DNA of 24,894 nucleotides from a virus. The notes beneath the pieces were generated by a model. It did no database searches. It was not told where the DNA came from and saw only the letters and a program-made list of their open reading frames with translations. Shown here in pieces: positions 3,442 through 24,894 of this stretch (position 1 is its first letter; each line of letters begins with the position of its first letter). The stretch is from the IMG/VR virus record IMGVR_UViG_3300036670_000237, positions 1-24,894 of that record; one strand, 5' to 3'. The position numbers were made by a program, and so were the translations under genes.

Positions 3442-3463
3442 ATTATTTTGTTTTTAGTTATAT

Positions 3464-3520
3464 GTAAATATAAACAAAAAACTCCGCATTAAAAATACGG
3501 AGTGTTAACTTTTTGTTAAA
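3464..3520 (-). promoter_or_regulatory. Repeated promoter, copy 5, with embedded terminator
   Basis: TTAACA boxes at 3514-3519 and 3503-3508, then TATATTTAC at 3464-3472. The spacer is 30 bp rather than 31 because the loop of the embedded hairpin (3481-3503) is one base shorter. The stem carries CCG/CGG where copy 4 has CTG/CAG, so pairing is kept. A T-run follows on the minus strand. Confidence 0.8.
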
Positions 3521-3522
3521 GT

Positions 3523-4053
3523 TTATTTCTGATCAAATGTTGAAGTAAATAAGTCATTCAAATAAATAAACATTATAGACAGTTCATGTGATTGAGAATA
3601 GCCCAATGATGTAATAAAACAATCATTTTCTTTTTTATACATCTCGAACATTCTAGATCTTGTCATCTTTGAATATTGTACATTTGCAATTCTATCACAT
3701 AACTTTACGAACAAAGCATACTCTGTGCTTTTAATTCCTTCATAGTATTTATCGTTTGCTCGTTCCTTTCGTGTTTTACCCTTTTCATTTGAAACAGCAT
3801 AAATAATATCCGCTGCAACATGTCCTATCACATTTTTAACATCATTATATGATACTCTAGTATCTTCAATAAGATCGTGGCCATACGCTGCTAAAATAAC
3901 TGATTCTATGTCATTTGGATTGCGAACTAATTTTATAAATTGTTGAGCAGTATTAGCTACCATTCTTAAATGAAATTCATATGGTAAATACGTATCGTAC
4001 ATGTGATTAGTAGATCTATGTTGTTCTAAAATATATTTGATTTTGTCTTCCAT
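3523..4053 (-). CDS. MESH1-like HD hydrolase (putative alarmone hydrolase)
   Basis: A 176-residue HD-domain protein matching the hydrolase half of RelA/SpoT and the stand-alone enzyme MESH1. Visible metal and substrate residues are H28, H59-D60 (AAYGHDLIEDT, with E63-D64), and D120 with N124 in KLCDRIANV. The four-residue gap between D120 and N124 is as in MESH1. No synthetase or TGS domain is present, so it should only degrade. Family members remove 3'-pyrophosphate from (p)ppGpp; some instead act on NADPH or (p)ppApp. It is the only gene behind promoter copy 6, with a terminator on each side. It may keep the stringent response or a toxSAS-type alarmone low during infection (inference). Confidence 0.82.
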   Translation of the reverse strand: MEDKIKYILEQHRSTNHMYDTYLPYEFHLRMVANTAQQFIKLVRNPNDIESVILAAYGHDLIEDTRVSYNDVKNVIGHVAADIIYAVSNEKGKTRKERANDKYYEGIKSTEYALFVKLCDRIANVQYSKMTRSRMFEMYKKENDCFITSLGYSQSHELSIMFIYLNDLFTSTFDQK

Positions 4054-4077
4054 GATAATATGTTTTAATTTGTATAT

Positions 4078-4135
4078 GTAAATATAATCAAAAAACTCCG
4101 TATTAAAAAATACAGAGTGTTAAATCTTTGTTAAA
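4078..4135 (-). promoter_or_regulatory. Repeated promoter, copy 6, with embedded terminator
   Basis: TTAACA boxes at 4129-4134 and 4118-4123, 31 bp, then TATATTTAC at 4078-4086. The hairpin at 4095-4118 pairs ACTCTGTATT with AATACGGAGT through one G-T wobble, then a T-run. It closes the 2H phosphoesterase gene and opens the HD hydrolase gene. Confidence 0.8.
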
Positions 4136-4142
4136 TTTCTAT

Positions 4143-4685
4143 TTAAATGTTAATAGTATTTTTACTACCATCTGTCATTGAATAAACAATATGTGATGGA
4201 ATTAAGACATGTTCATTCTTATTAAACATTTCTACGTATTTTTTTCCCATACCTGATTTTAAATATGCAACAGTCATATGAGGATGATAATCAGGATAGT
4301 CTGTTTTATATGGAAGTTCACATAAAGATTTATTGGCGGCATGTAAATTATCTCCCTTAATATCAAATTTAAGTACATCAAACTCTTTGTTTTCAAATAA
4401 TGAAATGTTATGTGCGATACATTTACCAAAGTCAAACCCTTGTAATTTTACTTTAACAGTATTTAATGATACATCTGCATTCAGTCCATATAATAGAGTA
4501 CAATGTGATTCGGTTTCTAGACCATGACCTCCTCCTTCATCGGATTCAAATAGATCAGACGCTATTATTTCTTTATGAATTTGTGCCATTTTTGGAAAGT
4601 CAAAGTATAACATTGCACAATTAGCGCTATATGTTTGTTTTTTAGCCTCGTTCATAAATTCCTCAAATAATTTTATTTTTTTCAT
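4143..4685 (-). CDS. 2H phosphoesterase (LigT-like) with capsid-targeting leader
   Basis: 180 residues. Two HxT motifs define the 2H phosphoesterase fold: H61-C-T63 (ESHCTLLYG) and H136-M-T138 (DYHPHMTVAYL). Relatives hydrolyse 2',3'-cyclic phosphates or 2'-5' bonds in RNA, and phage Acb1, also a 2H enzyme, degrades the cyclic nucleotides of CBASS immunity. The protein begins MKKIKLFEEFMNE-A, a leader shared with the next three upstream genes and similar to the T4 capsid-targeting leader MKTYQEFIAE-A, cut after Glu by the prohead protease. I infer that it is packaged in the head and injected. It is the last gene of the cassette and is followed by a terminator. The substrate cannot be decided from sequence. 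Confidence 0.85.
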   Translation of the reverse strand: MKKIKLFEEFMNEAKKQTYSANCAMLYFDFPKMAQIHKEIIASDLFESDEGGGHGLETESHCTLLYGLNADVSLNTVKVKLQGFDFGKCIAHNISLFENKEFDVLKFDIKGDNLHAANKSLCELPYKTDYPDYHPHMTVAYLKSGMGKKYVEMFNKNEHVLIPSHIVYSMTDGSKNTINI

Positions 4686-4690
4686 TTGCC

Positions 4691-5062
4691 TTATTTTTTA
4701 TTAAGTTTCTTTCCCTTTTCAATAGCCCAATCAACTCCTTCATCTCCACCCCATAGTAACCAACTAACATATCCTTTATCAAGCCATGGTGTACTTTTAA
4801 ATTCAGGTGATATTGCTGAGTTTTTTCTATGTCTATTAAATGATGCCATTCGAGATACAACATCAGCAGATATCTTTTCTTTATTTGCTAATTGATTTGC
4901 TCGTTGCCATCCAACTACAGTACCGGCCTTTATTTCATCTCTACCATATTCATCGCGCCAATCAATTGCCATTTTTGCATTTTGAGATGCGGCAGCTGGA
5001 TAATCATTATATGTTTCCTCTGATTCGTTTAAAAACTCTTCAAATAATTTTATCCTTTTCAT
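4691..5062 (-). CDS. Putative capsid-targeted small phage domain protein
   Basis: The frame is open further upstream, but I place the start at the ATG encoding MKRIKLFEEFLNE-SEE because this matches the leader of its neighbours and leaves a 7-bp gap to the preceding stop. The 123-residue protein then has a domain with DWRDEYGRDEIKAGTVVGW, RANQLAN, MASFNRHRK and SWLLWGGDEGVDWA. I recall such a domain from many phage head-associated proteins, sometimes attached to prohead proteases, but no function is known to me. LNE at positions 11-13 fits the L/I-x-E cleavage rule of T4-type prohead proteases. It is probably an internal head protein (inference). Confidence 0.78.
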   Translation of the reverse strand: MKRIKLFEEFLNESEETYNDYPAAASQNAKMAIDWRDEYGRDEIKAGTVVGWQRANQLANKEKISADVVSRMASFNRHRKNSAISPEFKSTPWLDKGYVSWLLWGGDEGVDWAIEKGKKLNKK

Positions 5063-5069
5063 TAATGTA

Positions 5070-5525
5070 TTAATCTTTTTCAGGCTTCCATGGTAGTTTT
5101 TTGTCATGACCACCGTCTCTAACTTCTTTGGCTAAATCCTTATCTGCATTTCCCCATGTTCCTTTTCCTTTTTCTAAGAATGCATTTACTCTTGCATATC
5201 CCCATCCTTCTTGAGTCATTCCTGCATAGTGACTTGAATTCCATGCTCCCATTCCTCTTCGCATTACCGCTCTAATAATTCCAATAGGAACACCTGACGC
5301 TTTTGCCTTATTGTCTAATCCAGTATTAACCGCTGCGTTTGCGAGTTTTTCACGTGAAGTTGCCTTATCTTCCTTCTCACTAATAAAATCAGGATAGTTG
5401 TCATTTCCACAGTTATGGCAAATATATGGATCATTTCCACCTTCTTCTAATCTCCATTCCCACTTGCATTTATCACATGTTACTTGATTAACAGAAAATT
5501 CTTCAAATGTTTTAAATAGTTTCAT
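5070..5525 (-). CDS. Zinc-ribbon protein with phage-specific C-terminal domain
   Basis: 151 residues. The N-terminus MKLFKTFEEFSVNQ resembles the leaders of the adjacent genes, but the Glu expected at the cleavage point is missing. A zinc ribbon follows: C17-x2-C20 and C36-x2-C39, in TCDKCKWEW and YICHNCG. The remainder contains KASGVPIGIIRAVMRRGMGAW, then SSHYAGMTQEGWGYARVNAF and a KGKGTWGNADKDLAKE tail, a domain I recall as recurrent in large-phage proteins and of unknown function. It sits 12 bp after the ATP-grasp gene. Either it is a less processed head protein, or the zinc ribbon acts on nucleic acid after delivery. Both are inference. Confidence 0.75.
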   Translation of the reverse strand: MKLFKTFEEFSVNQVTCDKCKWEWRLEEGGNDPYICHNCGNDNYPDFISEKEDKATSREKLANAAVNTGLDNKAKASGVPIGIIRAVMRRGMGAWNSSHYAGMTQEGWGYARVNAFLEKGKGTWGNADKDLAKEVRDGGHDKKLPWKPEKD

Positions 5526-5537
5526 TCTTATTTTATT

Positions 5538-6482
5538 TTATTTTATTTCAAATCTTTCTGGATTTAAATCCAGTGTTTTATTATCCATATAATAACTTAA
5601 TCGAATTAATTCAGTATCTGATTTTTTGTCTATATCAGTTCCATAAAAGTCATTATATATTGTTCTGTATATTTGTATTGTTGAATCGTATGGCACTCCA
5701 GGTTGAGAATTACTTTCAATTATATATAGCTTTCCGGACTTGTCTTCCATTATGTCAAAACATATATAAGGAAGATCTGAAAATATTTTACCGAACCTAG
5801 ACACTAGTGTATTAAATTTTTCAGGAATTTTATTTACGTCCATTTTAATATACTTAAAATCCATTTGCTCATCCTTCTTTCCCTTTCCCGACTTTGCCTT
5901 ATCATTCATTGGTTCCCTTTCCATCCAAAAGAAAGGCTTACCTTTGAATGTAAATAACCTGTGCTCTGCTACCTTATCAATATACTCTGAGTAAACATCT
6001 AATTTTGTGTGATCTGCTGCATCCCATTCTGATTGATTTTTAAATATCTGAATGCCTATTCCTGAATGTCCCTTAGCAGGTTTGCCTATCAAAGGAAATC
6101 CTATTTCCAGGGCTTCTTCAGTGCCATGTACTGTTTTTGGAATATTTTCATCACCTTTAACCATCTTGTGAAATACTGATTTAGAACCAGATAATTTAAT
6201 AAATTCAGGTAAATTATATATATTTTCTTTCTTAATAAGTCCCTCATCTAATAGTTTCTGTGTAACTTCAGAATTGTAAGTTAACACTGGAAATTCAGGA
6301 TTAATATCTAAATCCTTATAATTTTCGAGTGTTACCTGAATAAAGAAATTGTCTCCTGCAAAATCCTTATACGACCACCATCGATGACCACTTGTAGGGT
6401 TAATTGTTAAGTATATTTTATATAGACTTGGAAAATTAGATTGCTCCGCAATAAATTGTTCAAATAATTTAATTTTTTTCAT
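5538..6482 (-). CDS. ATP-grasp (RimK-like) enzyme with capsid-targeting leader
   Basis: 314 residues. The leader MKKIKLFEQFIAE-Q keeps the IAE cleavage site of T4 internal proteins. The rest is an ATP-grasp domain. It has K134 in FPLIGKPAKGHSGIG with the Gly-rich loop, a hinge segment YSEYIDKVAEHRLFTFKGK, and Mg/ATP residues D243 (YICFDIMED), E256 and N258 (LYIIESNSQPG). ATP-grasp ligases join a carboxylate to an amine through an acyl phosphate; RimK adds glutamate to a ribosomal protein. If packaged and injected, it could modify a host protein at once, as the T4 head protein Alt does by ADP-ribosylation (inference). First gene of the cassette, 12 bp after the nuclease-like gene. Confidence 0.82.
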   Translation of the reverse strand: MKKIKLFEQFIAEQSNFPSLYKIYLTINPTSGHRWWSYKDFAGDNFFIQVTLENYKDLDINPEFPVLTYNSEVTQKLLDEGLIKKENIYNLPEFIKLSGSKSVFHKMVKGDENIPKTVHGTEEALEIGFPLIGKPAKGHSGIGIQIFKNQSEWDAADHTKLDVYSEYIDKVAEHRLFTFKGKPFFWMEREPMNDKAKSGKGKKDEQMDFKYIKMDVNKIPEKFNTLVSRFGKIFSDLPYICFDIMEDKSGKLYIIESNSQPGVPYDSTIQIYRTIYNDFYGTDIDKKSDTELIRLSYYMDNKTLDLNPERFEIK

Positions 6483-6485
6483 AGA

Positions 6486-6495
6486 TTATATATCT
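6486..6495 (-). promoter_or_regulatory. AGATATATAA motif before the ATP-grasp gene
   Basis: Exact copy of the candidate late motif, inside a longer AT palindrome (6492-6507). It ends only 3 bp before the ATG, which would give an almost leaderless transcript, so it may not be the working element for this gene. Confidence 0.3.
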
Positions 6496-8839: not shown

Positions 8840-8866
8840 TTTGTGTTTGTTTTAATTAGATATAAT

Positions 8867-8924
8867 GTAAATATAATCAATATATTGACCTATTAAAAAT
8901 TTAGAGTGTTAATACTTTGTTAAT
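8867..8924 (-). promoter_or_regulatory. Repeated promoter, copy 7 (RNA ligase unit)
   Basis: TTAACA boxes at 8918-8923 and 8907-8912, 31 bp, then TATATTTAC at 8867-8875. There is no terminator hairpin in the spacer. Instead it carries the palindrome TCAATATATTGA, also present in copy 9. Confidence 0.78.
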
Positions 8925-8926
8925 TT

Positions 8927-9286
8927 TTATAACTTAACTTCGAATCTTTGTTTCATTTTATCTAATGATTCCTGAGGAACATTATGTGAGTTTTTTCCAT
9001 CATGTCTATTTTCAACAATCAATGAATATACTACATATCCAAAATCCTTTGCCATATCATGATATGATTGCATTTCCCATTCCTGTGTAAATGTGTTTGA
9101 AACTACAATTCTAGAAGCCTTTGCTAGCATCGCCGCAACTGTATTTAGTTTACATGATTCATGTGCTAATTTTATTTTGGAAAAATCGAAAGAGTATACT
9201 CCATTTTCGTCAGTGAAGTATTGATCTGCCTCATAATGATAACCTCCAATTGATTTTGCTAGTGTTGTTTTTCCAGATCCTGTCAC
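8927..9286 (-). pseudogene. Polynucleotide-kinase-like P-loop protein, 3' reading frame
   Basis: From GTG at 9286 the frame encodes VTGSGKTTLAKSIGG, then a kinase-like body with IVVSNTFTQEWEMQSYH and IVENRHDGKNSHNVP, as in N4BP2/Pnk-like 5'-kinases. The strand before the P-loop (LFLLRGLP) lies in another frame, 9283-9348. Joining CCG (9286-9288) to GGA (9278-9280) restores the canonical GLPGSGKT; the actual sequence has five extra bases (TGACA, 9281-9285) that also form a stop. The rest of the gene shows no other damage. So this is a recent mutation, a recoding event, or a shortened product from GTG that lacks the first strand. See the matching 5' frame entry. Confidence 0.72.
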
Positions 9287-9598: not shown

Positions 9599-9797
9599 GC
9601 TTTGTGATTTTGTATTGTGTTTTATAGTCTTCAATGAATCTTTCACCAATTCCTATTTCATCTAGAATAAATTGATCTGACAATAATGGTTTTCTCATTC
9701 CTATCTTTAGGATATTGTCAGGCGTTTTTTCATTTACAAAAACTGTCATATATCTTGTCTTTGATTTATCTGATTTTCGATAAACTACTACAATCAT
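9582..9797 (-). CDS. Small protein co-expressed with the sigma factor (71 aa)
   Basis: The ATG overlaps the end of the sigma-factor gene by one base, and the 3' end overlaps the DUF2805 gene by 17 bp. The product starts MIVVVYRKSDKSKTRYMTVF and has a beta-rich N-terminus and a helical, charged C-terminus (GERFIEDYKTQYKITKHAI). I do not recognise it. In T4 the late sigma factor gp55 works with the small co-activator gp33. A small protein translationally coupled to a phage sigma factor could play that role, but no sequence likeness supports this. Confidence 0.75.
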   Translation of the reverse strand: MIVVVYRKSDKSKTRYMTVFVNEKTPDNILKIGMRKPLLSDQFILDEIGIGERFIEDYKTQYKITKHAIHE

Positions 9798-10393
9798 TAT
9801 ATTGCCATTTTTTCAATAATCGATTTTCCTCGGTGGATTCTATTTTTAATTGTTTGTAATGGAAGGTTGTGCTTTTCGGCAATATCCTCATACTTCATTT
9901 CATTAATTAATCTATCAACAACGATACCTTTGTATAACACCTTCAATGAATCAATTGCATTTAAAACTTTACCGTAATTTTCCATTAGTTCGTTATCCTC
10001 ATCTAGATAATCTTGTTCGGTTTTCATTTCATAATCATCAAATGCGCCTTGCAATCCTGTTGTAAATTCACCTGCCTCATTAATTTCAACACCAAACTCA
10101 GAAAGAACATCAAGTGATGATTGTTTATTTCTATTTTTAATATGACCTAAGGCATCATTGAATCCAATGCGGTATAACCATGTGGTAATTTGATACTGAG
10201 GATCGTATTGATCAATTTTAGTCCACATTTTAGTTAAAGTATTTATAGAAATATCTTCTGCTAGCTCGCGATCTTTAACTATCTTATTTACATATGACGT
10301 TAACCCTGGTTTAATTTTATAAAATAAAGCAGTAAAATCTGCATCTGATCTGGTTAGTAAAAAATTCTCTGTTAATTCTCTGTAAGTTGCCAT
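9797..10393 (-). CDS. ECF-like sigma-70 family RNA polymerase sigma factor
   Basis: 198 residues. Region 2 is clear at about 41-89: DRELAEDISINTLTKMW, then YQITTWLYRIGFNDALGH. An acidic linker follows (about 100-140), then region 4 at about 146-197 with KYEDIAEKHNLPLQTIKNRI forming the helix-turn-helix. The layout is that of group IV (ECF) sigma factors, as found in phages where it replaces T4 gp55. It is preceded directly by promoter copy 8, so it should be made with the early/accessory genes and then direct late transcription. The likely target is the AGATATATAA motif before virion genes (inference). Confidence 0.88.
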   Translation of the reverse strand: MATYRELTENFLLTRSDADFTALFYKIKPGLTSYVNKIVKDRELAEDISINTLTKMWTKIDQYDPQYQITTWLYRIGFNDALGHIKNRNKQSSLDVLSEFGVEINEAGEFTTGLQGAFDDYEMKTEQDYLDEDNELMENYGKVLNAIDSLKVLYKGIVVDRLINEMKYEDIAEKHNLPLQTIKNRIHRGKSIIEKMAI

Positions 10394-10416
10394 AGATTTG
10401 ATTTGTTTATATATAT

Positions 10417-10474
10417 GTAAATATAATCATTTTATAATGTTATAAAAAATATTAATTGTTAAATTTATGTTAAA
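10417..10474 (-). promoter_or_regulatory. Repeated promoter, copy 8 (sigma factor)
   Basis: TTAACA boxes at 10468-10473 and 10457-10462 (the second continues with A instead of the usual C), 31 bp, then TATATTTAC at 10417-10425. It lies 23 bp before the sigma-factor ATG. Confidence 0.75.
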
Positions 10475-10993
10475 TTAAATAGTTATATCATTGAACAATT
10501 CTATTATTTTAATAACTTCAATTGGCTTAAATTCCCATAAGTCGCATGAGCAATTAATTATTTTAGTTTTGTGATTTGTTTTGTATTTTTTGACAGGTAT
10601 GCCTATGATTGAATATGATCCTTTTGATTTTCCTGGCCAGTCGGCCAAGGGCCAATATGACATCACTAGATTTTGATCAGAGTGTTCTTGAATTCCATTA
10701 TCTAACATGTGGAATCGATTAGATATTGCCATATTGATTTCTGAAACTGCATTATCATGTTCGCCTCTTATTACCATGATATCTCCATTTAGTTGAGACA
10801 TAGTTAAATCTGCAGTTTCAGGGTCCCATGCAAAATTACCTAAAACATATACTATGTCTTCTTTGTTGACGACAGAATTCCAAGCCTCTATCATTTGCAT
10901 ATCCATTTCTTCGACAGAATCGAATGGTCTTTTATATGACTTAATGGCAGATGGTCGACCGAATTGTTGATTTGATGTTACAAATACTTTCAT
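10475..10993 (-). CDS. Catalytically dead metallophosphoesterase homologue
   Basis: 172 residues that follow the calcineurin-like phosphoesterase scaffold from end to end but with the metal ligands replaced. Family TSDTHFG reads here TSNQQFG (D to N8, H to Q10). LGDF reads LGNF (N53). RGNHD reads RGEHD (E78, with H79 kept). SHYP reads SYWP (Y113). The last GHxH is GIPV (131-134). Scaffold residues remain: YKRPFDSVEEMD, DIVYVLG, MSQLNGDIMVIRG, DLWEFKPI. It should have no dinuclear metal centre and thus no phosphoesterase activity. The frame is intact, so the protein appears maintained for binding or structural use. It directly abuts the next upstream gene at 10994. Confidence 0.8.
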   Translation of the reverse strand: MKVFVTSNQQFGRPSAIKSYKRPFDSVEEMDMQMIEAWNSVVNKEDIVYVLGNFAWDPETADLTMSQLNGDIMVIRGEHDNAVSEINMAISNRFHMLDNGIQEHSDQNLVMSYWPLADWPGKSKGSYSIIGIPVKKYKTNHKTKIINCSCDLWEFKPIEVIKIIELFNDITI

Positions 10994-14365: not shown

Positions 14366-14390
14366 AATATGATTGTTTTAATTTGTATAT

Positions 14391-14448
14391 GTAAATATAA
14401 TCAATATATTGAACTATTAAAAATTTAAAGTGTTAAAACTTTGTTAAT
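14391..14448 (-). promoter_or_regulatory. Repeated promoter, copy 9
   Basis: TTAACA boxes at 14442-14447 and 14431-14436, 31 bp, then TATATTTAC at 14391-14399. The spacer is nearly identical to that of copy 7. It drives the unit from the 51-aa ORF through the phosphatase and glycosylase. Confidence 0.78.
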
Positions 14449-14486
14449 TTTTATCTATTTAAATTGATTTTTTCATGAAAATAAAA

Positions 14487-14827: not shown

Positions 14828-15124
14828 TTAATCAGTTACCTATTTTTCAAACTTAGTTTTAGTTGCTTTCCTCGGCCGAGGTTCATAACTAATTTCCAGT
14901 ATCGCCACGTGGAGGCGTTTGATTGATACCATGAGCTTCGTTATTCTCCATTAGGAATTGACTCGTGTGCCTTAAACCCTTTTCGGATATTTTTTCATAC
15001 AGTACTTTAGCCTTATCTTAAGTTGACTATTTCTTGCTTATTATACAATTTATTTTAATTCATCATCTCCTACTGCCCGTTTAGATGCGTTTATGAATTT
15101 TTATTACTTGATCAATTATTATAT

Positions 15125-15182
15125 ATAAATCTAATCAATTTTGGGTTAATAAAGAAATAATTAGTGTTAAATTTTTGTTAAA
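15125..15182 (-). promoter_or_regulatory. Repeated promoter, copy 10 (drives RNA B)
   Basis: TTAACA boxes at 15176-15181 and 15165-15170, 31 bp, then TAGATTTAT at 15125-15133, the most divergent -7 element of the set. No open frame follows; RNA B does. Confidence 0.68.
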
Positions 15183-15195
15183 TTTTTGTTTTAAA

Positions 15196-15734: not shown

Positions 15735-15758
15735 GATAGTGATGTTTAATTGTTATAT

Positions 15759-15816
15759 GTAAATATAATCAATATATAGACATCTAGAAAATTTAGAGTG
15801 TTAAATCTTTGTTAAA
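15759..15816 (-). promoter_or_regulatory. Repeated promoter, copy 11
   Basis: TTAACA boxes at 15810-15815 and 15799-15804, 31 bp, then TATATTTAC at 15759-15767. It is the rightmost copy and marks the border between virion genes and accessory genes. The 86 bp to its right (15817-15902) hold nothing I can identify. Confidence 0.77.
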
Positions 15817-15902
15817 TTATCGAATTAAAATAGAGTGATATGAGTGACCTATTGGATATACTAAGTAAAAACTACATCTTTTATATTTCGATGCGTTACG
15901 CG

Positions 15903-16215: not shown

Positions 16216-18900
16216 TTATTGCTCTGTAATATCTATTATTTTCAATGGACTATCGAATCTTGCTTCCAAGTCCATAATAGCCTGAACAACTGACCGCATG
16301 TCCATTAATGGTTCTTTGTTGGCAGTAGAATTAGATTGAGAATTACTTGATGGTTTTTTGTTTGCTATCGATAAATTATCTTTAATTGTACTTAATGTTT
16401 TTCCAAACACATCAGTCGTATCAGCGACAGTAGTTCCTTGTTTATCAACTGATTTTTCTAGATTCGAGACAGTTCCGGCTAATTCCTTAACGGCTACCAT
16501 TAATTTTTCTGCAAGAACCGCCATAGCAGATTCTCCTCCATTTTTGGCTAAATCATCTAACGCTTTAAACATATTAGTGGTTGCATCAATCGCTTTAATA
16601 TTCATTATTTTACTTGCGTTTGCAATTCCAGTATACGAACCTGCGATACTTCTAAATGAATTTGCTTGACTTTTAAAATCACTAACATTAATATTGTTGT
16701 GCAATTTATCAAGTGAAGAAAGAACAGATATAACATGATCTGCTGAATTATTAATTAATTCAAATCCTTTTCCAACATTCATTAATGGTATTGATAGTTT
16801 TTGAACATCAGGTGCAATAACTGCAAGTTTTGCTAGTAAATCTATTGGATTTATTTTATCTTTACCAAAAAATTCTCCTATTCCACTCGCAATACCTCCA
16901 ATAGCGCTGCCTACTCCACTAATAATACTTGAACCACTTAATGCTGCTGTAAATACTAGCCATGCGCCACCTAATGCTGCAACACCAACAGCAAGTCCTA
17001 TCATATTTTCTATACCAATCTCATTTTTAAAACGGGCAAACACATCTACAATACCATTAACAGGCGCTAATAATATAGATGTAAATCCCTTTGCAACTGA
17101 ATTTAATGCTGGCATTACAGGTGCTAATTGTGCTAAAATATATCCAACCGCCACTAATGTAATCGCAGATACAATTATACCAAGTGCGCCTGCTAAAAAT
17201 CCAATAGGAGTTAATAAAGTAACAGCTGGAGCAAGTAAAACAATCGCAACTGCCATTGCGCCTAATGCGACAGCAGTACCTAATGTCCATTCAATTGGTG
17301 GTGTTATAAATTTAGAAGGAGCGTATGATAATATCCATGCCGTCGCAATAATTGCAAACGCAGTTACTACAATTCCAATAAGTGCTGTCCCTAGTGATGC
17401 TACTGATATATTACTTAACACTTTACTTGAAAGAAATAACACAGCTCCAAATAATATTAGTGCCGCTCCTGCCTTTAGTGTCCAATCATATTCTGGCGCA
17501 AAGTATTGCATTCCAGTTAATCCTTGAAAAATCCAAGCGGAAGCAAGAATACCAAATGCAATTACTGGAATTGCAACTGTCATGAATAATAATTCCTTAA
17601 TACCTAATCCTTTAATCGATTTAGATATTATATAGAATGGAATTGAGAATACTAATAGAGCAAATCCTGTTCTAAGAACCCATTCAGGCTCAGGTGAGAT
17701 GTATTCGATTCCACCTAGCCCTTGAAAAATAAACGCTACTCCAGTAATAGCGACTGCCATTAATGGTATTGCAATAGATCCAAATATAATATCCCGTAAA
17801 CTAGCTCCCTTTATTGCCTTCATAATAAAGAAAAAACCAATTGCAAATAATCCAATCGCAAATGCAGATTTTAAAACAAACATAGGGTCAGGTGAAGCTG
17901 GATTATTTGGTAATAATTCAAATGCATATGCTACTCCTGTGATTGCTACTGCGATTCCCGGAATAGCCAAAGAACCAAATATAATATTCTTTAGACTTGC
18001 TCCCTTGATTGCTCTCATGATAAAACTAAATCCGATCGCAAAAAGTCCAATCGCAAATGCAGATTTCAGGACAAACATTGGGTCAGGTGCAATAAGGTTT
18101 GATGGTAATAATGAAAATGCATAAGCGGCTGCCACTATTCCTAATGCAATTGACGCCATTGATAATGATATCATTGCTATTCTACCAAGTCCCTTTGCGT
18201 CCGCTGTTATTTTACCTTTTTCCAATGCAGCCGCTATTTGAGAAAAAGCAAAAGATACTGGAATAAATGAAAAACCGACAAGCAACGCTGTTGCAAACTG
18301 AGGAAGAGTTATTGTTTTAATTAAAGAAAGGATATAAGATGATGCCGTTATTCCTGCAGCCATGGCAACCATAGATAATGATACTTCACCTGCAACTTTC
18401 ATTGGATCTTGATTACCTAATCCTGCCCTTTTAGAAACTAATCTTGCAATTAATCCTCCACCTCGTAATGATTCTGCTATATCTGCAAATATTGGAGCTA
18501 TTATAATAAATATACCGGCAATCGCCAAAGCCGTCAGTAACTGAGGTATACTAACAGGACTCATTATATTTAATAAACCAGAAGCAGCAACTAGCGCTCC
18601 TGCCATTGCAACAATAGCAAACCCTGCTGAAATTCCTCCTATTAGTCCCGGTAATTTCATATTGCTTTTTGTTGAAGAATTATTAGAAGAGCCCTTTATT
18701 TGCTCTTTTAACATTTCTTTAATATCAATTAATAGTGTGGTTTGTTTTTTAAGTTCGGTAACGGTGTCGATACCACTCTTGTTAATACTAAGAACTACTT
18801 CACTTATATGAGTAAGAGCCTCAGATGTTGCCTCACTAGCAGCCTGTATTTTTAATAGCGGGTTTAATAGTATTGAGAGTTGTTTTGAATTATTAGTCAC
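16216..18900 (-). CDS. Putative tape measure protein with hydrophobic tandem repeats
   Basis: 894 residues. About 1-75 is helical and polar. About 80-600 is a series of hydrophobic hairpins, including five related units of about 65 residues, two nearly identical (DPMFVLKSAFAIGLFAIGF). About 690-894 is polar and helical (LSIPLMNVGKGFELINNS, KLMVAVKELAGTVSNLEKS). The order tube, chaperone with frameshift, then a long hydrophobic gene is the usual place of the tape measure gene in tailed phages. It sets tail length and enters the host membrane during DNA injection. At about 0.15 nm per residue it implies a tail near 130 nm (inference). An AGATATATAA motif lies 41 bp upstream. Confidence 0.75.
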   Translation of the reverse strand: MTNNSKQLSILLNPLLKIQAASEATSEALTHISEVVLSINKSGIDTVTELKKQTTLLIDIKEMLKEQIKGSSNNSSTKSNMKLPGLIGGISAGFAIVAMAGALVAASGLLNIMSPVSIPQLLTALAIAGIFIIIAPIFADIAESLRGGGLIARLVSKRAGLGNQDPMKVAGEVSLSMVAMAAGITASSYILSLIKTITLPQFATALLVGFSFIPVSFAFSQIAAALEKGKITADAKGLGRIAMISLSMASIALGIVAAAYAFSLLPSNLIAPDPMFVLKSAFAIGLFAIGFSFIMRAIKGASLKNIIFGSLAIPGIAVAITGVAYAFELLPNNPASPDPMFVLKSAFAIGLFAIGFFFIMKAIKGASLRDIIFGSIAIPLMAVAITGVAFIFQGLGGIEYISPEPEWVLRTGFALLVFSIPFYIISKSIKGLGIKELLFMTVAIPVIAFGILASAWIFQGLTGMQYFAPEYDWTLKAGAALILFGAVLFLSSKVLSNISVASLGTALIGIVVTAFAIIATAWILSYAPSKFITPPIEWTLGTAVALGAMAVAIVLLAPAVTLLTPIGFLAGALGIIVSAITLVAVGYILAQLAPVMPALNSVAKGFTSILLAPVNGIVDVFARFKNEIGIENMIGLAVGVAALGGAWLVFTAALSGSSIISGVGSAIGGIASGIGEFFGKDKINPIDLLAKLAVIAPDVQKLSIPLMNVGKGFELINNSADHVISVLSSLDKLHNNINVSDFKSQANSFRSIAGSYTGIANASKIMNIKAIDATTNMFKALDDLAKNGGESAMAVLAEKLMVAVKELAGTVSNLEKSVDKQGTTVADTTDVFGKTLSTIKDNLSIANKKPSSNSQSNSTANKEPLMDMRSVVQAIMDLEARFDSPLKIIDITEQ
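17280..18100 (-). repeat. Tandem repeats of about 195 bp inside the tape measure gene
   Basis: Units begin with a Pro-rich turn and an aromatic-x-Leu: APDPMFVLKS, SPDPMFVLKS, SPEPEWVLRT, APEYDWTLKA, TPPIEWTLGT. The first two are alike even in DNA, offset by exactly 195 bp (for example 17885 and 18080), so that duplication is recent; the others have diverged. Confidence 0.8.
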
Positions 18901-18941: not shown

Positions 18942-18951
18942 TTATATATCT
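18942..18951 (-). promoter_or_regulatory. AGATATATAA motif before the tape measure gene
   Basis: Exact copy of the candidate late promoter motif, 41 bp before the ATG and directly after the terminator at 18956-18985, as expected for a new transcription start. Confidence 0.55.
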
Positions 18952-20464: not shown

Positions 20465-21019
20465 TTATGCTAAAACTTCTTTCCAAACATCACATCTAAA
20501 TGTAACATCAATAGGAACTGGCTCTGATTCATTATAGTTTAATTCAACAGTAAATGGTAATCCAGATGTAATTTGACAATCTTCCAATGTTACTGTTCTA
20601 TATATGTCTCCGGCTCTATTAAATTGAACTATAACAATTGTTCCTACATAGTCCTTTTTAAGACCCATGGCTCCTGTTTGAGGATCATATCGTAGATTAT
20701 ACCATTGTCTTAATGATTTGTAAAGGTATGCCTGATTGGCTTCATTTAAGTTTAAAGAAAAGTTAATAGTAACATCAACTGCAGTTCCATCGGGAATTCC
20801 CGCAAAGGATCTAGTTGAATGTTTATATTTTTGCTCTACTGCTCCAATTTCTTTATATAGTTCTAATCCGCCGATAGAATTAACGTGTTGTAACATAAGA
20901 GGTGCATCTGCAACTCCGTTAGGAGGAAGGACAGTTACTTCGAATAAGTTAGCTTGAACTGGTTCGAAGTTTCTACCTTTTCTAGATGTTTGATCTTGTG
21001 AATAGTGTGGTAAACTCAT
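20465..21019 (-). CDS. 19: Tail tube protein (T4 gp19-like)
   Basis: 184 residues, close to the 163 of T4 gp19. It begins MSLPHYSQDQTSRKGRNFEP. QANLFEVTVLPP and APLMLQHVNSIGGLELYK are typical of the tube N-terminal strands; KHSTRSFAGIPDGTAVDVTI, then YLYKSLRQWYNLRYDPQTG, follow. The end contains the beta pattern VTFRCDVWKEVLA. Subunits stack as hexameric rings inside the sheath and form the DNA channel. It lies directly after the sheath gene, as in T4 (18 then 19), with an AGATATATAA motif 21 bp before the ATG and no Shine-Dalgarno sequence. Confidence 0.92.
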   Translation of the reverse strand: MSLPHYSQDQTSRKGRNFEPVQANLFEVTVLPPNGVADAPLMLQHVNSIGGLELYKEIGAVEQKYKHSTRSFAGIPDGTAVDVTINFSLNLNEANQAYLYKSLRQWYNLRYDPQTGAMGLKKDYVGTIVIVQFNRAGDIYRTVTLEDCQITSGLPFTVELNYNESEPVPIDVTFRCDVWKEVLA

Positions 21020-21040
21020 TATTTAATAGTTTTTGTTTTT

Positions 21041-21050
21041 TTATATATCT
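21041..21050 (-). promoter_or_regulatory. AGATATATAA motif before the tail tube gene
   Basis: Exact copy of the candidate late motif, 21 bp before the ATG, followed by an A-rich leader. Confidence 0.55.
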
Positions 21051-21110
21051 TATTAATTGAATTGAATTTATCTAGTAATTCTTCAAACAATAGTATGCGT
21101 TTCTCTTATG

Positions 21111-23390
21111 TTATAGGTTACCTGATTGAATTTCCCCTGTATTTAAAATTGTAGTTCTATGTACTACGATCTCTAATCCTTTAACTGGTTCTACAAATGT
21201 ATCTATAATACCAATATTGTTATCAATTACTTCGTTAGTATTATTAGTTTGATCCATTATGTTACTAAACTCATAAACTCCACCGTCTTGTTTAACTGAC
21301 TCCATAAAGGAATCCGCTAGAGTTTTAATTTCTAAACGAGTTTGAACGTTGTTAAATTCAAAAACATAATCCTTAAGTATGTTTGCCATTCCATCTTGAA
21401 TATAAATAAGTACTTCTCTAACATGTGCTGAAGAAAGTGCTGACTTAATCGTTTGTTGTGCTGTTTTATTACCTAAAATAGTTAATCCTGTTCCTCTTTG
21501 AAAAACAATAGGGTTAATACCAAATGGCTCTATGATATCTCTATCACTTTTGTCAAATGCATATTCAACTCCTTTAACATTATTTCCAGAAACAACACCT
21601 CGTCTTGGACCTGCAACAATTGACCAAGGAAGAGAACTTGTATACTTATCAATAAAATTATTTGAAACAGCGGCTGCTGCCGGAATAACAATATCCTTTC
21701 CGTTATCGCTAACAATTAATCCAGGACCATAGTAAAATGCATAATTTGCACCTTCCAATATACCGGGTAGTGTATAGATCTTTGTTGGGTTTTTATCTAA
21801 ATTTCCTCCTGTTGGAATAAATCTAGTTTGAAATACTCCGTTTTCATCGCTAAATGATGGATTTGAAGATTTTTTAAAGTCTTCAACTGTTGGTGCATTT
21901 AAGATAGCAGAAGCGTTTTGTCTGTCCTTTGCTAATTGAGAAAGATTTGATTTGTTATTTAATCCATTTATATCAAATGATTTAAATGTGTCAACTACAT
22001 ATCTGAAATCAATAGTGTCTTTGTCTACTAGTGCATCATATAATCCAACTCCCTTTGATAAAACATTTAAATAATCACTTAAGTTTTTAACTGTAATTCC
22101 TGCCTTTGATAAAACAAAAGTAGAATAAGTGGCAGAAGCGTTTTCAAAAGTTTTTATAATTTTGTTATCATATAGTGGCTCAACATCAGTTAACACAGTA
22201 TATGTTACATGTGTGTTATCTACTGCTTTAGACACTCTACTAACTCTAGCTAGTCTTCCAACGGTTGATGATTGTACTAATTCTCCATTTGAAATTTCAA
22301 ATACAGATGGTGCATCGGCACTTAGATATTTTACAACAAAATTAGTATTTCCTGTAGTATGATTGTATTCACCTTCATCATCTATTCCAAACTCAAATGT
22401 TCTTAGTCTATCATCTATTTTAATATTATGTGATAATGATGAGTATACATTACCAGCTTCACATACATGTCCTACGAAATCAACCACAGTTCCGTTGTCA
22501 TTCATTACCATGTCCTCGTCTACTGCACAAAATAAGCCTGTTCTTCTTGCTTCAGCGTTAATAATTGATTCTATATAAAGATTTCTTCCTTCGATATTTT
22601 TAAATCCAGGTAAAATAGAACCAGTGTACTGTGCTATTAAACTAACTTGTCTTAGGTTTGTAAACTCATTTAATTTAGTTTTGTCAATACCATCTACTGT
22701 AAAGTACTTTGAATATATTGGATCATTTGACATCTTTACCGCATCGAATTCTCCTCTAAAAACAAAGACATCTACCATAAAATCAGATACTCTGTCAAAA
22801 TCATTTAAATATTCAGGAACTAAACCTTCTCCATACCATTCTCTTGCTGTTAAATCAAACTCATTTACATTTGCTGCTTGTCTTACTATAATTGTAATTG
22901 AATCTTGTTTAATGTTAACAAAGTTTAAAATATGATTTTGATCATTTGCGACAGTCTTTAATGTTTCAGTGTCAGATGGAACCATAAACTTATCATTATC
23001 AAAGAATTTAGTATAGTCATCACTACCTTCTACGTTTTTCATATCAGGTATTGATCCATTTGTTGATAAACTTTGAAAGTTAGTAATATCTTCGTCTGCC
23101 GTAAATTTACCTAGGTTTAACGCTAAGATAGGACCTCTTGACAATGCGTCAAGACATGATCTATGGAAAAACATTCCATTTTTTTCTAATGTTCTATCAA
23201 TACCTCCAAACACGTTTTCCAATGTTTCTCTTGAATCAATTAAAACAGGTGTATTGTATGGTCCTTTTCTAGAGTGACCTACTACCAGTCTTAGAGTCTC
23301 TACGTTTATACTTGACGTTTGAGATTTATCAAACTCAAGTCTATAAACACCTGAGCTCTTAAAATTTAATAATTGTGGGCTAATTGCCAT
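21111..23390 (-). CDS. 18: Contractile tail sheath protein (T4 gp18-like)
   Basis: 759 residues, longer than T4 gp18 (659). The N-terminus MAISPQLLNFKSSGVYRLEFDK and VVGHSRKGPYNTPVLIDSRE, with FGGIDRTLEKNGMFFHRSCLDALSRGP, is typical of T4-type sheaths. The C-terminal polymerisation domain is recognisable in PFGINPIVFQRGTGLTILGNKTAQ, SALSSAHVREVLIYIQDGM and FVEPVKGLEIVVHRTTILNTGEI. The extra length probably lies in a variable surface domain (about 290-480). The sheath contracts to drive the tube through the host envelope. The ATG follows an A-rich leader with AGATATATAA 25 bp upstream. Confidence 0.94.
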   Translation of the reverse strand: MAISPQLLNFKSSGVYRLEFDKSQTSSINVETLRLVVGHSRKGPYNTPVLIDSRETLENVFGGIDRTLEKNGMFFHRSCLDALSRGPILALNLGKFTADEDITNFQSLSTNGSIPDMKNVEGSDDYTKFFDNDKFMVPSDTETLKTVANDQNHILNFVNIKQDSITIIVRQAANVNEFDLTAREWYGEGLVPEYLNDFDRVSDFMVDVFVFRGEFDAVKMSNDPIYSKYFTVDGIDKTKLNEFTNLRQVSLIAQYTGSILPGFKNIEGRNLYIESIINAEARRTGLFCAVDEDMVMNDNGTVVDFVGHVCEAGNVYSSLSHNIKIDDRLRTFEFGIDDEGEYNHTTGNTNFVVKYLSADAPSVFEISNGELVQSSTVGRLARVSRVSKAVDNTHVTYTVLTDVEPLYDNKIIKTFENASATYSTFVLSKAGITVKNLSDYLNVLSKGVGLYDALVDKDTIDFRYVVDTFKSFDINGLNNKSNLSQLAKDRQNASAILNAPTVEDFKKSSNPSFSDENGVFQTRFIPTGGNLDKNPTKIYTLPGILEGANYAFYYGPGLIVSDNGKDIVIPAAAAVSNNFIDKYTSSLPWSIVAGPRRGVVSGNNVKGVEYAFDKSDRDIIEPFGINPIVFQRGTGLTILGNKTAQQTIKSALSSAHVREVLIYIQDGMANILKDYVFEFNNVQTRLEIKTLADSFMESVKQDGGVYEFSNIMDQTNNTNEVIDNNIGIIDTFVEPVKGLEIVVHRTTILNTGEIQSGNL

Positions 23391-23415
23391 AATTTTAAGT
23401 GTTTTTTTTCTTTTA

Positions 23416-23425
23416 TTATATATCT
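23416..23425 (-). promoter_or_regulatory. AGATATATAA motif before the tail sheath gene
   Basis: Exact copy of the candidate late promoter motif, 25 bp before the sheath ATG and just downstream of the hairpin at 23443-23466. Confidence 0.55.
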
Positions 23426-23442
23426 ATGTTTATTTTGAAATC

Positions 23443-23466
23443 TTGCTTTAAATGAATTTAAAGCAA
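23443..23466 (-). terminator. Hairpin over the terminase stop codon
   Basis: TTGCTTTAAA pairs with TTTAAAGCAA around a 4-nt loop. The last Leu codons and TAA of the terminase are in one arm. No strong T-run follows on the minus strand. Confidence 0.5.
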
Positions 23467-24894
23467 ATCATAAATGTCGAATTGAAGTGAAGAATCTCCA
23501 CCTCCATTATCTTTATATAATACTTCTTCCATTAAGTCATGTATTTCAGGATCTATTACATCTAATAATTCCTCAACATAATCGGCATAATCAGTTGTTC
23601 CGAAAAATTCAGTTGCAGTAATACATGTCATTATAGTATCGTCCTTTCCCATTTGTGCCGCATAACTACCATTCTTTACCGTTCCAAATAAACTTGCCTC
23701 CTGTACTGTTGTTATTTCATTTATTTTAATTCTATTAATTTCTATAAGCTTTTTAAAATTTTGACAAAACACTGATTTATTATCTGATTTAAGCTTTAAT
23801 CCGGCCTTCGGAACCTTTGAATCATGTCTATGTTTAAATCTAAGAACCATTTCATCTTCAAAATCATTCCTTCCAGGAAACACTGTCGATAGGTATTGTA
23901 GTAGTATACTTCCATATGTATTGTACTCTATAATCATCTTAACGTTCTCAGGATTAAACACATCAATTGCTAGTGTATATAAAATTTTCGCGAAATCTTC
24001 AATAGGATGTTCATTACTTCTAAAAACAGCAATTTGGTTTATCTTAAAAAAATCATACATTGCGCCTGGGCTTATATAGTTTTCAATATCTTTGTTTGAC
24101 ATCGGTTCAACTTCAAAAATATTAACAACAGAATAGTCTCCTCCGTTTCCTTCGGCAATATCTACTGAAAATAAATAATATCTATCTGATTCGGCGGCGG
24201 CCTCTATGTCAAATCTAGGATCAAATCCAAGAAAACCTTCAACATCTATATGTATGTTTTCAAAATCCTCTAAGTCATGATATACAAATTTCTTTGCATT
24301 TTTTCTAATACTTTTCATTGTACCAGGACTTAGTAATAAACTCGATGAACTTGTAAATTCGTTACCATACTGTCTATTAAACGCGTCTTCAGAACCTAGG
24401 TTTCCAAGTTCTCTCTTATACCATTCATCGTCCCTGTCAGGATGTTGCCACCAATCAATTCGAGTTGCTTTATATTCATTGTTACCCTGTTCGGCATCTG
24501 CGAATATCTCATAAAACTTATTAAATCCATTGGGTGTGGATGTTATATTAATTCTAGAAATTTTAGATGCAGAAAGAGTAGGATATACGTTTTCATAAAA
24601 GGCGTCAACTATAGTAGGATGGACGTGAGCAAACTCATCAAGATATAAATTATGTATAGTGAATCCAATACCTGATTTTGCAGTAGTTGATTGTCCTACA
24701 AGACGGCATCCATTATCAGCACGGACATTCATTACATCATATTTGATGATACCTGGCTTCATGTAGAATGGAAGATTTTCAAGTACAACCTTAGCCTTAT
24801 CTATAATTTCCTTTGTTGATTCTGATTTGTTTGCAAGAAGTAATGTAGTTTTGTCATAATTAAAAACTAGGTACCATGCATTAAAAATCGAAGC
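23458..24894 (-). CDS. 17: Terminase large subunit (T4 gp17-like), partial
   Basis: The gene runs off the right edge; 478 residues to the stop are present and the frame is open from 24894, so the ATG at 24762 is internal. Visible ATPase parts are TTLLLANKSES, GQSTTAKSGIGFTIHNLYLDEFAH with the Walker B aspartate-glutamate, and the coupling motif NITSTPNG. The nuclease domain shows YYLFSVDIAEGNGGDYSV (first metal aspartate), MIIEYNTYGS (glutamate) and AAQMGKDDTIMTCITA (final aspartate). The N-terminal Walker A is outside the window. The protein pumps DNA into the prohead and cuts it. Order terminase, sheath, tube is that of T4 genes 17-18-19. Confidence 0.95.
   Translation of the reverse strand, partial: ASIFNAWYLVFNYDKTTLLLANKSESTKEIIDKAKVVLENLPFYMKPGIIKYDVMNVRADNGCRLVGQSTTAKSGIGFTIHNLYLDEFAHVHPTIVDAFYENVYPTLSASKISRINITSTPNGFNKFYEIFADAEQGNNEYKATRIDWWQHPDRDDEWYKRELGNLGSEDAFNRQYGNEFTSSSSLLLSPGTMKSIRKNAKKFVYHDLEDFENIHIDVEGFLGFDPRFDIEAAAESDRYYLFSVDIAEGNGGDYSVVNIFEVEPMSNKDIENYISPGAMYDFFKINQIAVFRSNEHPIEDFAKILYTLAIDVFNPENVKMIIEYNTYGSILLQYLSTVFPGRNDFEDEMVLRFKHRHDSKVPKAGLKLKSDNKSVFCQNFKKLIEINRIKINEITTVQEASLFGTVKNGSYAAQMGKDDTIMTCITATEFFGTTDYADYVEELLDVIDPEIHDLMEEVLYKDNGGGDSSLQFDIYDLL

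Follow-up and report, generated by a model that had tools for sequence, protein, structure and literature searches.

It is established that T4-like phages pack diverse anti-defence proteins by means of their capsid-targeting CTS (PMC9026906; PMC3012670). T4 genetics assigned targeting to CTS residues 4 and 7 and processing to residues 8 and 10, a Glu-to-Asp change in IPIII is reported to block cleavage alone, and the protease gp21 cuts by the rule L/I-x-E (PMC9026906). In SPN3US and phiKZ, head proteins are processed by a gp21-related protease before injection (PMC5694885). The polyvalent proteins of phages and conjugative elements carry disparate domains in one chain and are thought to be injected together with the DNA (PMC5512222). 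According to a 2026 review, Tad1 is the only anti-defence protein so far described in jumbo phages (PMC13282480).

The window (the whole stretch of DNA analyzed here) is a 24.9-kb IMG/VR viral fragment of a T4-related myovirus, an assignment supported by the tube, sheath, and T4-type terminase genes at 20465-24762. A cassette at 4143-6482 on the minus strand encodes four adjacent, unrelated proteins that share the leader MK-x-I-K-L-F-E-x-F-x-x-E. We confirmed all four ORFs and their leaders as the initial annotation had described them; genes bearing this leader are called tagged below.

5538-6482, minus strand: P1, tagged ATP-grasp-like protein, 314 aa; leader MKKIKLFEQFIAE, encoded at 6444-6482
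5070-5525, minus strand: P2, tagged zinc ribbon plus DUF5824, 151 aa; leader MKLFKTFEEFSVNQ, without Glu13
4691-5062, minus strand: P3, tagged small helical module (phrog_2859), 123 aa; leader MKRIKLFEEFLNE, encoded at 5024-5062
4143-4685, minus strand: P4, tagged Acb1-like 2H phosphoesterase, 180 aa; leader MKKIKLFEEFMNE, encoded at 4647-4685

The same annotation had named the attached cargo as an ATP-grasp enzyme, a zinc ribbon, a small phage domain, and a 2H phosphoesterase. The last could be refined to Acb1-like, and the zinc ribbon stands, joined in P2 by a DUF5824 domain (34 bits, cut-off 25). P1, which bears the leader in most relatives, is only a divergent ATP-grasp, with weak matches that all lie below Pfam cut-offs. 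P3 is a helical module with an AlphaFold model (pLDDT 89), for which a search of the PDB with that model found no structural relative; its start is best placed at an inner ATG (5062), the mechanical ORF beginning at a GTG (5113).

The x-E was said to be kept in three of the four leaders, and Glu13 is indeed present in P1, P3, and P4 and absent in P2, whose relatives keep FSANQ at this place. The next [LIVM]xE of P2 is ISE at residues 48-50 (5376-5384), between the zinc ribbon and DUF5824. T4 IPI likewise lacks an immediate Glu and has ITE at residues 17-19. Lacking Glu13, P2 would probably be cut later, as T4 IPI is, so the cutting after residue 13 that had been proposed for the cassette probably does not extend to this member.

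A 170-kb contig (G001, also L001) is near-identical across the cassette, with identities of 100% for P1 and 99% for P4. Megablast against GenBank phages matched nothing. Ranked by major capsid protein, the closest named records are a 462-kb metagenomic phage at 51%, the Prevotella Lak phages at 39%, and Tenacibaculum PTm1 at 30%; these capsid relatives suggest a host among the Bacteroidota.

Three related contigs (G001; G005, 236 kb; G010, 256 kb) contain 58 tagged genes, 13-26 per contig or about 6-9% of the genes of at least 60 aa, with the consensus M-K-[HK]-[IV]-K-L-[FY]-E-[QED]-[FY]-[IVL]-[NSTA]-E. In the strict subset, all 49 leaders have exactly 13 residues, and the bodies behind them are unrelated within each genome (18 families for 18 genes, 20 for 21, and 10 for 10). 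Relative entropy is 2-4 bits at positions 2-13, falls to 1.1 at position 14 (A, K, S, G), and is near background from 15-16 onward; conservation thus stops at residue 13-14. Because the strict pattern fixed some positions, leaders were re-selected on residues 1-10 only (n = 71). Positions 11 and 13, which unlike F/Y at 7 and 10 are not part of the selection pattern, then carried I/V/L in 57/71 and Glu in 58/71.

Over the three contigs, the motif follows the N-terminal Met in 57 of 1481 cases and an internal Met in 3 of 2774 (Fisher p 4e-23), and composition alone would give 0.57 N-terminal cases against the 57 observed. Within the window, the codon-degenerate leader pattern has two exact matches (P1 and P4), where dinucleotide shuffles give 0.00. 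Residues 1-16 of P4 are modeled as disordered (pLDDT < 50) and separate from the folded body. Outside this group, the leader was not found in 44.7 kb of PTm1 (part of the genome only), and 100 kb of the 462-kb phage LR756500 (also a part) gave three loose pattern matches, none in the consensus form.

The T4 CTS residues Tyr4, Phe7, Ile8, and Glu10 align with leader residues 7, 10, 11, and 13, and as a T4 control, the leader pattern also accommodates YQEFIAE of IPII and IPIII and FGSFLTE at the gp23 cut site. The leader could instead be an expression element governing ribosome access or timing, its protein sequence being incidental; several of its codons are rich in A, and Lys5 is encoded by AAA throughout the three contigs. 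However, F and Y exchange in the leader, Phe codons are freely mixed, and same-residue codons agree in 0.67-0.71 against 0.60-0.61 expected. Agreement so little above expectation indicates that leaders are held at the protein level and not by recent copying. Moreover, the leader ends at a protease-type site, and fusions have protein linkers with that same site in place of the leader. We find an expression element scarcely credible. Recent duplication of the leader as DNA was also considered and rejected, because the bodies are unrelated and the synonymous sites near saturation.

The initial annotation had proposed a search for further ORFs with this start, and such ORFs exist in large numbers. 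A DNA pattern scan across all viral contigs matched at least 120 stretches, and the 109 loci examined held at least 225 tagged ORFs in at least 99 body families. Few of these families match any Pfam or PHROG family, and most have no known function. Among the others are GNAT, zeta-toxin/AAA kinase, cytidylyltransferase, CHAP, and ATP-grasp families. A PADLOC search gave weak matches only. A Tad3-family protein is tagged in four contigs (G010, G011, G012, and G014), where a second SINE or SLNE directly precedes the Tad3 domain, and untagged in two (G013 and G019); Tad3 is a type I Thoeris inhibitor by Pfam name. We also looked for the basic character of T4's cargo and found that the net charge of tagged bodies does not differ from that of other genes. 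This likeness to the T4 internal proteins was rejected; basic charge is a property of T4's cargo and not of the CTS.

Tagged proteins might be packaged mainly as head or scaffold components, with injection and action on the host of minor importance. T4 IPIII influences head assembly (PMC9026906), and most of the at least 99 bodies match no known family. On the other hand, the bodies vary greatly between genomes and include enzymes and known anti-defence families, and P4 retains both catalytic HxT motifs. We judge this possibility unlikely, while granting it more weight than any other alternative considered here.

Two other huge phages have recurrent gene starts of another sequence. In G018 (loci L159-L175, e.g., 313405-318599), roughly 25-30 genes begin MKIIITESQ or MKILITENK, and in G017 (L176-L190, e.g., 84927 and 265274), seven genes have an MKLKNLLNE-type start. 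These are possibly lineage-specific leaders of the same kind.

For P4, the match to the Acb1 family (PF23474) reaches 29.9 bits against a curated cut-off of 27, and the HxT..HxT residues (H61, T63, H136, T138) are invariant in 30 aligned sequences. Among 2H enzymes, the P4 model (pLDDT 87) is closest in fold to 9q2g and 7t27, and its best matches comprise a phage anti-CBASS phosphodiesterase (9q2g), a cGAMP phosphodiesterase from a poxvirus, and Acb1 itself. By family and predicted fold, P4 is Acb1-like (anti-CBASS), and cleavage of CBASS cyclic nucleotides is inferred from this likeness. It shares with Acb1 of T4 (57B) and phage FBB1 the 2H fold, the HxT..HxT motifs, and the Pfam family, despite only about 16-18% identity to the solved Acb1. 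P4 is tagged, whereas T4 57B has no such leader, and this leader is also absent from the Acb1-like relatives in other phages; several of those begin instead with another short stretch that ends in L/I-x-E, e.g., MIKLKDLITE or MELNEQLTKIKTMMGINE. In T4 (NC_000866, 73591-74410; L315), the acb1 gene (57B) directly adjoins ipI, and its start, MMEFKDFS, faintly resembles the IPI start, MKTFKEFT. A literature search found no packaged Acb1 and nothing on Tad3 with Thoeris, subscription papers being largely outside its reach.

Absence of a gp21-like protease would have refuted the initial annotation. The window has no Peptidase_S77 match, which is uninformative because the fragment lacks the head region. 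A Peptidase_S77/gp21 homologue does score over the Pfam cut-off in the near-identical 170-kb contig and in 16 others. In the 170-kb contig, a 638-aa ORF (165751-167667) lying between the genes for portal and major capsid protein has this homologue as its N-terminal portion, and the remainder of this ORF is a scaffold with leader-like repeats, mostly at 14-residue spacing (YTNYLAE, YTEHLAE, YSEHIAE, YTEYLRE, YAEYVAE). The scaffold is the motif-richest protein in every contig tested (n = 7), with 7-8 leader-like motifs in six (G002, a near-duplicate of G001, included) and 3 in the remaining one. Motif density in these six is 11-13 per 1000 aa, against 0.1-0.4 elsewhere and a shuffle maximum of 2. 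T4 gp22 has many [LI]xE sites, and the aromatic repeat was not found in it; scaffold mimicry is therefore not established in T4 and so far specific to this lineage. Outside the head module, three contigs (G003, G004, G005) encode a second Peptidase_S77 paralogue of only 132 aa, e.g., G005 156286-156672 on the minus strand.

The small gene between portal and protease, in the same place as T4 genes 67 and 68, is itself tagged (G001, MKTIKTFEQFINSS; G005, MKIIKTFEEFTSS; G010, MKKLIKTFEQFIFE), without Glu13 in the first two. In the capsid propeptide, L-Y-E is conserved at the expected maturation cut, the cut itself being inferred. These observations bear on whether the leader might be an intracellular localization signal unrelated to the capsid, for a membrane, a replication compartment, or degradation. 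Such signals are also short, N-terminal, and common to unrelated proteins. They would not predict that the leader matches T4 CTS residues, that the scaffold carries the same motif, that a core gene between portal and protease is tagged, or that junctions lie at cut sites, and we regard a localization signal as very improbable.

P1, P3, and P4 of the window are each single-module. In relatives, cargo modules are fused, namely the zinc ribbon, DUF5824, a GNAT acetyltransferase, the P3 module, and two modules without a name. The P3 module occurs in 17 distinct contexts, and in 16 of them it starts right after [LIVM]-x-E-[AS], whether it is preceded by the leader (FLNE/S), the zinc ribbon (ILMQE/A, PSMNE/S), DUF5824 (ESLNE/A), or another segment (VVLE/S), the slash marking the junction. 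GNAT starts after [LIVM]-x-E in all ten of its contexts (FINE/GQ, ILGE/A, IMSE/A, KLAE/G). For the other modules, the counts are weaker and come from a wider scan window. Since P3 and GNAT follow either one with the same [LIVM]-x-E, leader and internal linker are, as far as sequence can tell, interchangeable and share a putative cut motif, as polyprotein cutting by the prohead protease would require. In unrelated phages, the P3 module is also fused inside proteins whose annotation is prohead protease, portal, or major capsid, which independently suggests that it travels with heads.

No tagged gene of the three contigs exceeds 314 aa, a length that 26% of the other genes surpass (p 2e-8); the wider scan includes a few of up to 371 aa. 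Tagged genes also adjoin one another, with 7, 14, and 7 adjacent pairs in the three contigs against 1.1, 2.2, and 0.7 at random (p <= 2e-4). The cassette is contiguous, as first described, but not isolated, being one among several tagged clusters. A promoter-like element, GATATATAA, lies directly upstream of it and recurs before tail genes:

6486-6494, minus strand: GATATATAA, directly upstream of the cassette (P1)
18942-18950, 21041-21049, and 23416-23424: further GATATATAA elements before tail genes

The window has 5 such elements against 1.3 expected. They precede sheath, tube, and tape-measure-like genes here and capsid and scaffold genes in relatives. The nearest element is of this structural type for tagged genes by 37 to 7 and for other genes by 245 to 272 (p 2e-6), and the trend is absent in the tagged genes of G010 alone (3 to 5). 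As GATATATAA was chosen after the sequences had been seen, this test is exploratory.

A dispersed intergenic repeat of ~85 nt has a promoter-like anatomy on the minus strand, with TTAACAAA, TTAACACT, often a small hairpin, and TGATTATATTTACAT. It precedes non-structural genes but neither the cassette nor the tail genes:

104-188, 267-351, 1387-1471, 2907-2991, 3447-3531, and 4061-4145, minus strand: copies of the 85-nt repeat
8865-8949, 10400-10484, 14374-14458, 15108-15192, and 15742-15826, minus strand: further copies of the 85-nt repeat

At 9797-10393, the window encodes a phage sigma-70 family factor whose regions 2 and 4 both exceed their Pfam cut-offs; it is a candidate for reading GATATATAA or the 85-nt repeat. 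The long tape-measure-like gene 16216-18900 contains two direct repeats of 195 nt each (17722-18111) that are 75% alike.

Our preferred explanation, which we hold with high confidence, is that the 13-residue leader is a T4-type CTS and belongs to an internal-protein system that huge phages have expanded into a modular cargo code. During head assembly, the F/Y-x-x-F/Y face of the leader would bind the scaffold core, itself bearing motif repeats at 14-residue spacing, and this binding would draw each tagged protein into the prohead. The scaffold-fused gp21-type protease would then cut after [L/I/V/M]-x-E, which would take off the leader and, in relatives, split chains of joined modules into separate proteins. 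Once released, these proteins would remain with the DNA, enter the next cell alongside it, and there disarm host defence and start the takeover before phage gene expression. Disarming host defence is a likely role because the cargo includes Acb1-like (window) and Tad3-like (relatives) proteins.

What we observed by computation is the shared leader with its boundary and number, the lack of relation among the bodies behind it, the presence of the protease, the repeats in the scaffold, the module junctions, the association with the promoter-like element, and the cargo families. Prohead targeting and L/I-x-E cutting are supported by the module junctions, scaffold repeats, size limit, and promoter type. 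In the absence of data on virion proteomes or cleavage, binding to the core, cutting by the protease, packaging into virions, injection, and action against host defence are all inferred. The suggestion that the cassette is packaged and delivered has thus gained support from the protease, the further tagged ORFs, the junctions, and the repeats, and remains an inference as to virions, cleavage, and injection.

A broader proposal could as easily fail as hold: that huge phages have a genome-wide cargo code, in which a leader mimicking one repeat of the phage's own scaffold loads dozens of unrelated, mostly unknown proteins, anti-CBASS and anti-Thoeris proteins included, with polyproteins cut in the capsid by a scaffold-borne protease and other lineages using other leaders of the same design. 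Should our preferred explanation hold, a sequence rule would sort about a hundred orphan phage protein families as packaged and injected, and anti-CBASS and anti-Thoeris proteins would arrive in the cell already synthesized, not produced once infection has begun. That explanation also yields a specific, testable model of the CTS, in which the leader mimics a scaffold repeat that carries its own cut site.

Compared with the literature searched, four features are new: the scale, the leader-like repeats of the scaffold, the cut sites at the joints between modules, and the presence of the leader on Acb1- and Tad3-like proteins. As in T4, with IPI, IPII, IPIII, and Alt, a short N-terminal leader stands on unrelated proteins and has an aromatic, an aromatic, I/V/L, and E at the same spacing. 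The gp21-family protease, the [L/I]xE rule, anti-defence cargo, and a promoter-like element common to internal-protein-type and structural genes are also shared. T4, however, has a handful of tagged genes against 13-26 per contig, and its cargo is basic; unlike T4, these phages have a protease fused to the scaffold, a scaffold with leader-like repeats, and modules joined by cut sites. The ejection proteins of SPN3US and phiKZ are likewise head proteins with propeptides cleaved by a gp21-related protease (cleavage being inferred here), but those propeptides are mostly longer than 100 residues against 13 in our leader. The fusions in relatives resemble polyvalent proteins in placing disparate domains in one chain, and differ from them in that the modules are small, meet at sites of the prohead-protease type, and occur now as single tagged genes, now as fusions.
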